Shown here piece by piece: positions 53,727 to 57,867 of a stretch of DNA of 64,000 bases; the stretch's first letter is position 1; the number at the start of each line of letters is the position of its first letter. The stretch covers positions 186,001 through 250,000 of the forward strand of contig JAIUOT010000017.1 of NCBI GenBank assembly GCA_020161015.1, in the 5' to 3' direction. The position numbers and the translations under genes were made by a program. Source of the DNA: Actinomycetota bacterium. GTDB taxonomy: Bacteria; Actinomycetota; Actinomycetes; Propionibacteriales; Propionibacteriaceae. Below the pieces are notes generated by a model. That model saw nothing but the letters and a program-made list of their open reading frames with translations, was not told the origin of the DNA and searched no databases.

Positions 53727-56123
53727 ATGGGTCCCGACAGCGCACAGTCGCGGCGGTGGGGAGCGGTGACCGTCGTCGCTGTCGCCTGCCACGCCGTCCT
53801 GCAGGCCTGGCTGGTGGTGGCGGCACTGTCCCCGGGCCTCCTCGCGTCCGTCCCGGAACCCCTGGCCTGGATCGCCCGGCCGGGCTCGGTCGGGGCGATG
53901 TCCGTCGTCCTCGGGGTGGGCGCGCTGGCCTTCGGCCTGGTGGTGGCGACGCGCTGGAAGGCCTCCGCGCGGGTGCCGTTCCTGCTGTCGGCCTGGAGCG
54001 CGGGGACGGCCGTGCCGCTGGCTGTCGCCGCCTACCTCCCGTGCACCGGCGACGGCCCACCCCTGTGGGACGCGCTCAGCAACGCCTTCGCGCTGTTCCT
54101 CGGCTCGTTCGAGCAACCCTTCGGGCCCGGTCAGGCCTGCGCCTATCCGACCCCGCTGGCCCTCCAGGTCGCCCGGCTGCTCGCGATCCTGGCCACCCTC
54201 AGTGGAGCGACGTCCGTGCTCTTCTCGGTCTCCCGCTCGCAGCTCGACCGGCTGGCCGCCCTGCGCGCGCGCCGCCTGGTGGCGGTGGTGGGGGCGGACG
54301 TGTCGTCGTGGCCGCTCGTGCAGCACGTCGCCCGCTCGGCCGGACGCGGCGTGCGGACCGTCCTGCTCACCGGCGAGCCCGAGGCCCACGCCCGGGCGGC
54401 CCCGAGCGACGGCGTGCTGGTGTGGCGCACCCCCGGCGACGACCCGCTCGCCCTGCGGGACGGGTTCCCGTGGAGGCGGGCGGTCCGGTGCTACCTGCTG
54501 GCCCCCGACGGGGGCGCCAATCGCGCGCTCGCCCGCCAGTTGCGCGAGGCACTGCCGCCCGGCGTGCCCGGATCCCCGCGGCTGCCGGTCGTCGCCCGGA
54601 TCGACGACCCGTGGCACGCCGACGACTTCCGGCGTGGGTCCATCGGCGACGCGCGCGTGGTGTTCGACGCGGTCGGCACGCACGAGTCCACCGCCGGGCT
54701 CCTCGTGGAGCGGATCCGGAGTGTGCCGGAGGTCACCGACCTCCTGCTGGTCGGCGAGGGCGCGCTGGCGCTGGCGGTCCTGGCAGAGCTGTCGCAGGCC
54801 GGTCGCGAGGCCCGGTACCTCGACGGCGCCGCGGTCCTCCCGCGGGTGCGGCTGTTCGGACCCGGCGCCGCCGACCTCCTCGCCGACCACCGGGTGCGAC
54901 AGGGGCGGTTCGCCTCCGACCCGGTGGCCGTCGACGTGGCGTCGGGCGAGGCGTCGCTCGACGATCTGGAGCCCGCTCTCGCCGGTGTCGGCGCGGCCGG
55001 CGGGCGCGCCGTCGTCGTGGTGGCACAGGAGGGGTCGAGACTCGGGACGAGGCTCTCCGTCCGGCACCCGGAGCTGTCGGTGTTCGAGCTCGCGCAGGGC
55101 GCCGGGGAGCTCGGCGGGGCGGAGTCGGCGGCCGGTGGCCTGGTCGAGTTCGCCCTGGCCCTCGCCCCGTCCACCGGCAGGGGCGCGGACGCCTGGGAGC
55201 GCGCCGCGCGGGCCGTCCACGAGCGCTACCGCCGGCGCTTCCCGAGCGCCGCCCACGCGAGCCCGTGGGAGGAACTGCCGGAGTTCTACCGGGAGTCGAA
55301 CCGCCGGCAGCTGTCGAGCATCCTGGACGGCATGGTGGCGCTCGGCCGCACGTGGTCCCCCGCCTCCCCGGAGGACACCCCGTTCGACGAGGCGCGCATC
55401 ACCTCGGGCGAGGAGGAGGACCGGATCGCCGAGGGGTCGCGGCTGTTCCAGCTCTCCGAGCAGGAGGTGGCCGCCCTCGCCGCCGCCGAGCACGAGTCGT
55501 GGCGCGCGCACCACCTCGCCGAGGGGTGGCGCCAGGGGCCGCGCCGGGACGATGATGCGCGGCGGCACCCCGACCTGTGCGGCTGGGAGGAGCTCACGGA
55601 GGCCTCGCGGCGCAAGACCATGGCCGGAGTCGTCGACACGCTGTTCCGGCTGCGCGCACTGGGCTACCGGGCCGTGCCCGCGGGGCCGGCCGTGGGCTGG
55701 GCGCGCTACCGCCGGGTGGGCGAGGTGCAGGCGTCCCGGTTGGACCGGCACCACTCCTGGCGGTCGACGGACGGCGCGGAACTGGCCGGCGTCCCCGGTG
55801 ACTGGCTGGTGACCGACCCGTCGGGAGGGACGCGGACGGTGACGGACGCCAGCTTCCGCGCGACCCACGAGCACGATCGGGGTGACACCTGGCGCCGCAC
55901 CGGCGTCGTCGAGGCCCGTCCCGTCCTTCCGGGCGAGCGCGTCGACACGCAGGAGGGTCCAGTCGTTGCACGAGGCCCGGGGTGGGTCCTGCGGGACGGG
56001 GACGGGCACGCCTGGGTCGTCGGGGAGGAACACTTCCGGGCCGCCTACGCCCCCGCCGGCCCCGCGCCCGCGGTCAGCGCTGGGCCAGCCACTCCTCCAG
56101 GCGGGACGGGTACGCGGTCATGA
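53727..56123 (+). CDS. Membrane protein with TrkA-N-like, RyR and PGDYG-like domains
   Basis: 798 residues. Four hydrophobic helices in 12-168. Then two Rossmann-like segments: RRLVAVVGADVSSWPLVQHVARS (183-205) and VTDLLLVGEGALALAVLAELSQAG (336-359), giving a TrkA-N/RCK look. A RyR-type domain at about 577-650 has EHESWRAHHLAEGW, RRHPDLCGWEELTEASRRKTM and LFRLRALGYR. The C-terminus has two copies of a PGDYG-like unit (AGVPGDWLVTDPSGG... and ARGPGWVLRDGDG...). GGCGGAGG sets ATG 53727. The 3' end overlaps the TIR-GDPD gene by 50 bp. Such parts are typical of channel-like or conflict-system sensors; function is inferred only. Confidence 0.75.
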   Translation: MGPDSAQSRRWGAVTVVAVACHAVLQAWLVVAALSPGLLASVPEPLAWIARPGSVGAMSVVLGVGALAFGLVVATRWKASARVPFLLSAWSAGTAVPLAVAAYLPCTGDGPPLWDALSNAFALFLGSFEQPFGPGQACAYPTPLALQVARLLAILATLSGATSVLFSVSRSQLDRLAALRARRLVAVVGADVSSWPLVQHVARSAGRGVRTVLLTGEPEAHARAAPSDGVLVWRTPGDDPLALRDGFPWRRAVRCYLLAPDGGANRALARQLREALPPGVPGSPRLPVVARIDDPWHADDFRRGSIGDARVVFDAVGTHESTAGLLVERIRSVPEVTDLLLVGEGALALAVLAELSQAGREARYLDGAAVLPRVRLFGPGAADLLADHRVRQGRFASDPVAVDVASGEASLDDLEPALAGVGAAGGRAVVVVAQEGSRLGTRLSVRHPELSVFELAQGAGELGGAESAAGGLVEFALALAPSTGRGADAWERAARAVHERYRRRFPSAAHASPWEELPEFYRESNRRQLSSILDGMVALGRTWSPASPEDTPFDEARITSGEEEDRIAEGSRLFQLSEQEVAALAAAEHESWRAHHLAEGWRQGPRRDDDARRHPDLCGWEELTEASRRKTMAGVVDTLFRLRALGYRAVPAGPAVGWARYRRVGEVQASRLDRHHSWRSTDGAELAGVPGDWLVTDPSGGTRTVTDASFRATHEHDRGDTWRRTGVVEARPVLPGERVDTQEGPVVARGPGWVLRDGDGHAWVVGEEHFRAAYAPAGPAPAVSAGPATPPGGTGTRS

Positions 56124-57867
56124 TGATGTCCGGGTGCTGCGCGGTGAACGTCGCCCACTGGGCGGGGTCGTTGAGCACCCACACCATCACCTTCACACCG
56201 ATGGCCTGGAGCTGCCGGAGGTAGGACGGGGTCGCCACACCCTGCTCCACGCCCACGGCCCACAGCCCTTCGTCCGCCAGCGACGCTGCCGGGACCTGTC
56301 GGCCAGAGACGAACAGCATCCGCTTGTACTCGGGGGCTGCCCGGGCGACGTCATCGAGCCACTCGCGCGAGAACGACGTGATCACGGTCCGCTCACGCAG
56401 GCCGTAGCGGACCGGCGCGGCCAGGAACTCCTCGCGCTGCGCGGTGGTCTGGGCGGTCTTGACCTCGAGGAACACCATGGCGTTCCCGCTGGCGGCGGCG
56501 ATCCCCTCCAGGGTCGGGTCGAGCCGCGGCACGGGGTACTGCGCGGGGTCGGTGGAGGTCGGCTTGGACTTGCAGAGCCGGTTCAGGTCCTTCCAGGTCG
56601 TCCGGGACACGCGCACCGCTGTGCCACCGCAGTCCAGCCCCTTGGTGGCCTGTTCGTCGTGCACGAGGACGGCGACGCCGTCGGAGGTGAAGCGGACGTC
56701 GGTCTCCACCGAGAACCCGTCGGCCGCTGCAGCCTCCATCGCCTGCTGGGTCTCGAACTGGTGCTTCTCCAGCCCTCCGCGATGGGCGAGGATCATCGGC
56801 ACGGCCGCGTCGCCGCCGGAGGCCGGGCTGGGCGTGTTGGTGGCCGGGACCGTTGCGGTGGCCGGGGCCGATGCCGCCGGTGAGGGGGTCGCCGCCGCGA
56901 CGGGCGTACCACGGGGCCACAGGACGACGGCGGCGGCGACGAGCACGAGCACCGCCACCGCCGCGCCCACCAGGACGAGCACCCGGGGACGGCCGGGTGC
57001 TGCGGGGCTCCCCGCCTGCGGCGACGATCCGCCGAGGGGCCGGACGGGCACGGCACCATCGGGCTGTGCGTCCGGTGGTGCCGGCGCCGGGTCCGGGGGC
57101 GGGCCGAAGACCGGGAGCGCGGGGCGAGTCGTCGCGGAAGGTGCCGCCGTTGGTGGTGTGGTCGATGGCGGTGTCGCCGACGGGGGTGTGTCCGGGGCGG
57201 GCGGTGCCTCCTCCCGGGCCGGGGTGCGCGCGTCCCCACCCGGAGGGTCGGAGGCCGTTGGCGCCGCGTCTGGCGGAGGCGCGGACGGCGCTGCCGGCCC
57301 GGGCGCGACGACCGGCACCACGGCGGGCGGCCGGACCGCGGGCGCGTCCGGGGGCGGGACGGCCGGTGCCGCCTCGGGGAGCCGGGCAGCCGTCCCGGTA
57401 CCCATGGTCGCGGCGAGGGTGGCGAGGAGCCGGTCGGTGTTGAAGCCGACGGGGCTGATCTCGACCGCCTGGCGGCGGGTGAGGGGCAGCAGGTCGGGCG
57501 GGAGCTCGTCCGCCTGTGGCATCGCCGCGCCGTCGACCAGGATCGGGACGACGCGCACGCCGCGGGTGAGCGCGGCGGTGAGCTCGAGGCGGACGAAGTC
57601 GTCGGGGTCGTCGAGCCTGCGCCGTCCCCGCGCGTCGGTCATGGTGGCCCACCGGTTGCCGATGAGGGCGAGCAGGACGTCGCACGCGGCGACGGCGTCG
57701 GTGATCCGCTCCACGAAGTCGTCGCCGGGGTCGATGTCGTCGACGTCCTTGAAGACCGACCCCGCGCCGAAGCGGGCGACGAGCACCTCGTAGAGCTGCC
57801 GGGCCGGCCAGGCCGTCTCCTGGCGCCGGTAGCTGATGAAGATCTTGCCCTGCCTGCCCTCCGGCAC
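56074..57867 (-). CDS. TIR domain - transmembrane helix - GDPD fusion
   Basis: 597 residues. Residues 7-155 are a bacterial TIR domain (KIFISYRRQETAWPARQLYEVL, VFKDVDDIDPGDDF, NRW, DDFVRLELTAAL); E95 is the candidate NAD-cleaving Glu. A 135-residue Pro/Ala linker leads to one transmembrane helix (about 295-317). Outside would be a glycerophosphodiester phosphodiesterase domain (355-597): LAHRGG, VETDVRFTSDGVAVLVHD (E388, D390, H403), VFLEVK and MVWVLND; the usual P-E-N-T is QFET. No N-terminal signal, so the TIR part stays in the cytoplasm. GGAGGAAGGGG before GTG 57867 sets the start. I know no characterised protein of this plan. Confidence 0.85.
   Translation of the reverse strand: MPEGRQGKIFISYRRQETAWPARQLYEVLVARFGAGSVFKDVDDIDPGDDFVERITDAVAACDVLLALIGNRWATMTDARGRRRLDDPDDFVRLELTAALTRGVRVVPILVDGAAMPQADELPPDLLPLTRRQAVEISPVGFNTDRLLATLAATMGTGTAARLPEAAPAVPPPDAPAVRPPAVVPVVAPGPAAPSAPPPDAAPTASDPPGGDARTPAREEAPPAPDTPPSATPPSTTPPTAAPSATTRPALPVFGPPPDPAPAPPDAQPDGAVPVRPLGGSSPQAGSPAAPGRPRVLVLVGAAVAVLVLVAAAVVLWPRGTPVAAATPSPAASAPATATVPATNTPSPASGGDAAVPMILAHRGGLEKHQFETQQAMEAAAADGFSVETDVRFTSDGVAVLVHDEQATKGLDCGGTAVRVSRTTWKDLNRLCKSKPTSTDPAQYPVPRLDPTLEGIAAASGNAMVFLEVKTAQTTAQREEFLAAPVRYGLRERTVITSFSREWLDDVARAAPEYKRMLFVSGRQVPAASLADEGLWAVGVEQGVATPSYLRQLQAIGVKVMVWVLNDPAQWATFTAQHPDIIMTAYPSRLEEWLAQR

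Follow-up and report, generated by a model that had tools for sequence, protein, structure and literature searches.

The transmembrane (TM)-macro form of the Thoeris effector ThsA binds ADP-ribose (ADPR)-type nucleotides, according to the available part of its description (PMC11204291), and phage proteins with a ryanodine-receptor (RyR) domain bind the cyclic ADP-ribose (cADPR) isomers 2'cADPR and 3'cADPR, according to the accessible portion of a May 2026 preprint (PMC13232231). In that portion, one phage RyR-domain protein is reported to use H75 and D117 to hydrolyze 2'/3'cADPR; of eight phage RyR homologs, six bound, but the others gave no hydrolysis. In the literature searched, as far as this portion of the preprint goes, TIR messengers meet RyR domains only via phage counter-defense (PMC13232231). 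Here, we describe a pair of cellular genes in a 64,000-nucleotide stretch of an Actinomycetota bacterium of the family Propionibacteriaceae (assembly GCA_020161015.1, contig JAIUOT010000017.1, positions 186,001 to 250,000; hereafter the window): a receptor gene encoding a TIR domain, a Pro/Ala-rich linker, a TM helix and a GDPD domain, and a partner gene encoding a membrane protein with tandem RyR repeats. We consider it very probable that TIR and RyR genes of this kind form one system.

The pairing recurs beyond the window. Matches to the TIR part of the receptor occur in 7 of 96 genomes, the window's genome counted, and RyR is present in five of 96 relatives, four of which are among those seven; across the class, RyR was found in 51 of 394 genomes. 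Neighborhoods were covered for 43 of 55 RyR genomes, window included, and 14 of the examined genomes carry an RyR protein with four TM segments. A TIR lies within 6 kb of the four-TM RyR gene in 12 of these 14 (the window and genomes G001, G005, G098, G142, G158, G173, G252, G319, G336, G384 and G423), against a chance expectation of 0.13 computed from genome TIR_2 counts, a figure that ignores relatedness. G142, G158 and G173 each have a single TIR_2 match in the whole genome. The TIR profile used for this survey was seeded by eye, partly from the same loci, and the TIRs were therefore rechecked with Pfam: those beside four-TM RyR genes were above the cut-off in every one scanned, and that of G001 was accepted through its 82% identity to the window. 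One profile scan scored at most nine candidates per genome. The window's genome holds two further TIR_2 matches, at G000:C61:13128-13412 (L007) and G000:C50:18430-18720 (L009).

A Mycobacterium-like genus, to which G384 belongs, gives a denser sample. Among its 198 genomes, RyR was matched in 72 (E 1e-20; fragments and decayed copies included), TIR in 56 (E 1e-10) and both in 50 (Fisher p 9e-23, relatedness again being ignored); six TIR genomes have no RyR match. The two genes lie within 800 bp of each other in 46 of the 50 genomes and on separate contigs in the other four, a count that takes one place per genome and in which G480 and G537 entered with the RyR piece beside the TIR; using their best-scoring RyR pieces, it becomes 44 of 50. 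Forty of the 46 close pairs lie on the same strand with the TIR downstream, mostly at a distance of 85-240 bp, and six are divergent. The TIR proteins of this genus end in a PknH_C domain (4/4 scanned with an intact frame). When one PknH_C-type TIR was compared with plasmids by tblastn, 23 records were returned, 22 of them from Mycobacterium or Mycolicibacterium, and the 15 listed match via the ectodomain. In G537 and G572 (3.3 Mb, one contig each) the adjoining RyR and TIR genes contain several stops and are decayed copies of the pair. Patatin-like frames, in which 'GGGVRG' and 'GGTSTG' were spotted by eye, lie near RyR and TIR genes at 6217-7356 of L125 (G252) and 4126-5157 of L150 (G098).

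The pairing persists while the other domains of the TIR protein change; these may be GDPD, PknH_C, nSTAND1-WD40 or an ectodomain without a name. G001 and G005 both have the partner next to their TIR gene (62% and 51% identical, respectively, the G005 copy being cut by a contig end), and in G005 it is kept although the ectodomain differs: the TIR of G005 is 69% identical to that of the window and is followed by a linker, a TM helix and an ectodomain without a Pfam name. A plasmid search with the partner found it once only, in Rhodococcus, and it was not found in the phages or viral contigs searched. On the Rhodococcus qingshengii plasmid NZ_CP054208.1, an RyR protein adjoins a protein with DUF4062, a domain reported as a TIR-like NADase in the available part of one source (PMC13174449), and the same stretch has two annotated TIR proteins, one above and one just below the Pfam cut-off. 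This stretch (L155, 125-17920) encodes the RyR membrane protein, DUF4062, the two TIRs, WD40, PASTA and VWA, and resembles a conflict-system cluster.

The receptor gene (56074..57867) encodes 597 residues, from a GTG start at 57867 to a stop at 56074. The original prediction gave these limits correctly and without a strand; the strand is minus, the frame being backed by codon-position GC, and the GTG has a good ribosome-binding site, GGGAGGAAGGGG, directly upstream. A gene on the plus strand across the same interval was ruled out by an in-frame stop. The TIR domain (57397..57849, minus strand, about residues 7-157) matches TIR_2 over residues 9-120 (E 4.8e-11, 43.7 bits against a cut-off of 28) and has E95 intact, at the position predicted; this residue is constant across six aligned TIRs. 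E95 pairs in the alignment with a SARM1 Glu (that in 'hkEivtal'), which we take to be the catalytic E642, an 'E642A' entry being present in the list of structure matches. A TIR model from five sequences reached a predicted local distance difference test score (pLDDT) of 81.5 and a predicted template modeling score of 0.80, in keeping with the fold foreseen, and its best solved structural matches are SARM1 TIR chains; SARM1 also ranks first (2e-5) in a PDB sequence search with the receptor TIR. A spurious TIR match is ruled out by the invariant E95, the model and the SARM1 fold match, and profile, fold and catalytic Glu together suggest a place for the window TIR in the TIR NADase branch.

The TIR is followed by a Pro/Ala-rich linker (56983..57396, about residues 158-295), conserved in neither length nor sequence, and by a single predicted TM helix (56920..56982, residues 296-316), which is placed by hydropathy only and is the hydrophobicity peak of the protein; 45 Pro and 35 Ala occur among the 155 residues from 166 to 320. 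The GDPD domain (56077..56805) matches PF03009 over residues 362-587 (E 1.8e-21, 77.8 bits against a cut-off of 23.6) and has the active-site residues H362, E388, D390 and H403, which are conserved in G001 and G002 as well, together with an LEVK motif; cysteines 413 and 432 are kept in three of three orthologs. Basic residues immediately precede the TM helix (PRRSRR in G001, RPSRR in G002, GRPR in the window) and, with the kept cysteines, favor a topology in which the TIR is cytosolic and the GDPD extracytoplasmic. The domain order, topology and catalytic residues of the original prediction are borne out, down to the numbering of the four GDPD residues; what it overlooked is the constant neighbor with RyR repeats.

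The fusion itself is no artefact of joined genes, because the intact order of TIR, linker, TM helix and GDPD is kept in two congeners, G001 and G002, whose TIRs are 82-83% identical to that of the window. These were the two close matches besides the window in a search of 60 relatives with the GDPD part (64-67% identical); no other match was stronger than E 1.3e-16 or exceeded 46% identity, the highest identities being over short stretches. In G069, from another genus of the same family, a TIR-GDPD copy is split between frames. Conservation of the TIR and GDPD domains without conservation of the linker is as expected for two working domains on a tether. G002, itself without an RyR match, has a second protein with TIR, linker and TM helix (L044, G002:C137, 1500-2687, plus strand), whose ectodomain has no Pfam name.

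The partner gene (53727..56123, plus strand) likely starts at ATG 53727, its frame being open from GTG 53661; it is convergent with the receptor gene and overlaps it by 50 bp at the 3' end. Hydropathy averaged over the family predicts four TM segments (38-56, 77-95, 105-123 and 173-191 in numbering from the GTG) in the TM region (53772..54233). The loop between the third and fourth holds C128 and C160, and two cysteines are found in this loop in 12 of 13 members. Profile comparison places an RCK-like middle at 54249..55160 (limits approximate). A weak first RyR repeat (55182..55364), detected with a hidden Markov model (HMM) built in this analysis, precedes a second (55446..55682), which matches PF02026 with E 1.1e-12 and 48.5 bits against a cut-off of 27.4. 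Pfam recognizes RyR in 13/13 members of the partner alignment, and most relatives show tandem repeats with our HMM. The phmmer matches of the single partner sequence include animal RyR1 (5e-14) and PDB entries that carry the name 'putative ryanodine receptor' (2e-8 to 4e-8). Pfam detects no SIR2, SLOG or macro domain in the partner, and PADLOC gave no match.

A further class of RyR relatives has two TM segments. Compared as profiles, the four-TM and two-TM proteins align over 533 columns that take in the loop, the TM part, the middle and the RyR repeats (probability 100, E 5e-43). The two-TM relatives have TrkA_N in 14/14 and match TrkA-domain and potassium-channel structures, and on the strength of this comparison we place the partner with RCK-channel-like proteins; it may conduct ions. 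The two-TM class (L114-L149, family f21) has TrkA_N, mostly keeps the catalytic Asp discussed below, and occurs in TIR-rich genomes without being TIR-adjacent. Elsewhere in the window, from 51268 to about 51650 on the minus strand, lies the C-terminal part of a frame with an Ion_trans_2 match (1.6e-12) and a TVGFGD filter motif. This small two-TM K+ channel gene, some 4.4 kb from the receptor gene, is not considered part of the pair.

The repeats of the partner retain residues associated with ligands. In an alignment with RyR1, repeat 2 matches the ligand residues with H611, W614 and H636 and has T653 where animal RyR has Asp, which is also the position of catalytic D117 in the phage glycosidase RyDEP. 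A motif scan, which requires H..W and missed the G252 protein, reached 13 proteins of the four-TM type. The second His is present in 13/13, and the catalytic-Asp position has Thr, Ala or Asn in 12/13, only G319 keeping Asp, by an ungapped count that is least sure in the Mycobacterium-like proteins. Asp is kept in most two-TM relatives. The missing Asp favors a sensor over a hydrolase, and the TIR-associated RyR type looks, from these residues, like a binder.

The TIR and the RyR membrane protein form a constant core with varying inputs. The simplest account runs from input through TIR, ADP-ribose messenger and RyR to the membrane, and we give this two-gene mechanism a probability of about 0.58. 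In the window, the GDPD would read a cue outside the membrane by binding or cleaving a glycerophosphodiester; its catalytic residues being intact, the trigger could be turnover of a substrate or binding of a product. The signal would then cross the single TM helix and assemble or free the cytosolic TIRs, which, judging from their family and intact Glu, may convert NAD+ to a messenger of the ADP-ribose type, for example a cADPR isomer. When this messenger binds the tandem RyR repeats, the pore or the clustering of the four-TM, RCK-like partner would change. The original prediction had proposed a receptor linking lipid or teichoic-acid breakdown products to NAD-based signaling. A transmembrane receptor with a TIR is still the best reading, and as GDPD is one of several inputs, a pathway specific to lipids or teichoic acids would be a single branch of it.

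Several observations weigh against this two-gene mechanism. The window's receptor and partner genes are convergent and therefore not co-transcribed, and G002, an 88% complete metagenome-assembled genome, has the TIR-GDPD fusion and a second TIR-TM gene with no RyR match. G009 and G069 carry a four-TM RyR gene without an adjacent TIR, the TIR-GDPD of G069 being broken. The other 29 neighborhoods have a TIR in only G293 (at about 30 bp) and G294 (at about 5 kb), and the two-TM relatives, many of them in genomes with 10-40 TIRs, are almost never adjacent to one; accordingly, we claim the pairing only for the four-TM type and for G293 and G294. In the Mycobacterium-like genus, 22 of the 72 RyR genomes are without the query TIR; the three of these that were inspected have other TIRs nearby (TIR-nSTAND1-WD40 in G098 and G142, TIR-nSTAND1 in G252). 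As for the partner, only one of the 13 four-TM members shows TrkA_N directly, a TVGYG-type filter is absent from the loop between the third and fourth TM segments as read from sequence, and a single-sequence model was unusable (pLDDT 41).

Convergence of the two genes and the G002 fusion without an RyR match would both be expected if the TIR-GDPD and RyR proteins were unrelated neighbors, the fusion acting as a stand-alone NADase or as a TIR-anchored envelope phosphodiesterase; this is very improbable for a pairing that recurs across genomes and survives a change of ectodomain. The RyR protein could instead be a brake on a TIR that is an NADase or messenger maker, soaking up the messenger or sensing NAD+/ADPR and so protecting the cell, and the known phage RyR-domain proteins, which are messenger sponges or hydrolases in the accessible portion of the preprint (PMC13232231), offer a precedent. 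We find this conceivable but unlikely: TM and RCK-like parts are needless for a soluble sponge, and the catalytic Asp is missing in 12/13. TIR domains also act as scaffolds, as the available part of another source describes (PMC7075850), and the TIR might assemble directly with its partner with no nucleotide messenger, leaving the GDPD as a tethered enzyme or binding module. Against this, E95 is invariant across the six aligned TIRs, the closest fold among solved structures is that of the NADase SARM1, and RyR domains bind nucleotides in the one studied case (PMC13232231, same portion), so that a pure scaffold seems quite unlikely. Returning to the messenger mechanism, a broader proposal, tentative and in our view somewhat short of even odds, is that the pair belongs to a modular actinobacterial pathway in which an ectodomain-TM-TIR receptor with exchangeable GDPD, PknH_C or other ectodomains makes a cADPR-type messenger that acts on an RyR-gated channel, a bacterial parallel, and perhaps a source, of animal cADPR/ryanodine-receptor signaling.

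In the literature searched, whose coverage left one highly relevant 2025 preprint outside, we found neither a bacterial TIR/RyR gene pair nor, as the original prediction had held, any described system with the TIR-TM-GDPD order; the available parts of two eLife surveys (PMC7159879, PMC8195603) and of a review (PMC12948488) contain no passage on bacterial RyR. The window pair would work like Thoeris, with its TIR protein ThsB and its effector ThsA, the TM-macro ThsA being nearest: both comprise two genes, a TIR gene paired with a putative effector gene, here the RyR gene, whose product is predicted to be a nucleotide-reading membrane effector. It differs in that the reader domain is RyR rather than SLOG or macro, the described SIR2-SLOG and TM-macro effector types not being matched, and in that the TIR is anchored in the membrane and carries a domain outside. 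With RyDEP and the phage RyR sponges, in the accessible portion of their description (PMC13232231), the partner shares PF02026 and its His, Trp and His ligand residues, but those proteins serve phage counter-defense, whereas the partner belongs to the cell, lies in the membrane, has its repeats in tandem and is of a type usually without the catalytic Asp. With a recurrent cellular TIR/RyR pair, the RyR domain would gain a partner native to bacteria.

Like animal ryanodine receptors, the partner is a membrane protein that bears RyR repeats in tandem, with the RyR1 match given above; unlike them, it is far smaller and its TM part is RCK-channel-like, and direct gating by cADPR is unproven in either. 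The pair would make direct cADPR action on RyR repeats, an old question, testable in a small protein. Toll-like receptors share a TIR inside, one TM helix and a ligand domain outside, but the window TIR is N-terminal, the N/C order being opposite, no leucine-rich repeat was matched, and we claim no whole-protein homology. In its layout, the receptor also recalls the actinobacterial receptor Ser/Thr kinases of the PknH type, with a cytosolic output, a Pro-rich linker, one TM helix and an outside domain, and its relatives use the PknH_C ectodomain itself; the difference is that the TIR occupies the place of the kinase. The pair would show bacterial TIRs as outward-facing receptors whose ectodomains are swapped as in receptor kinases.
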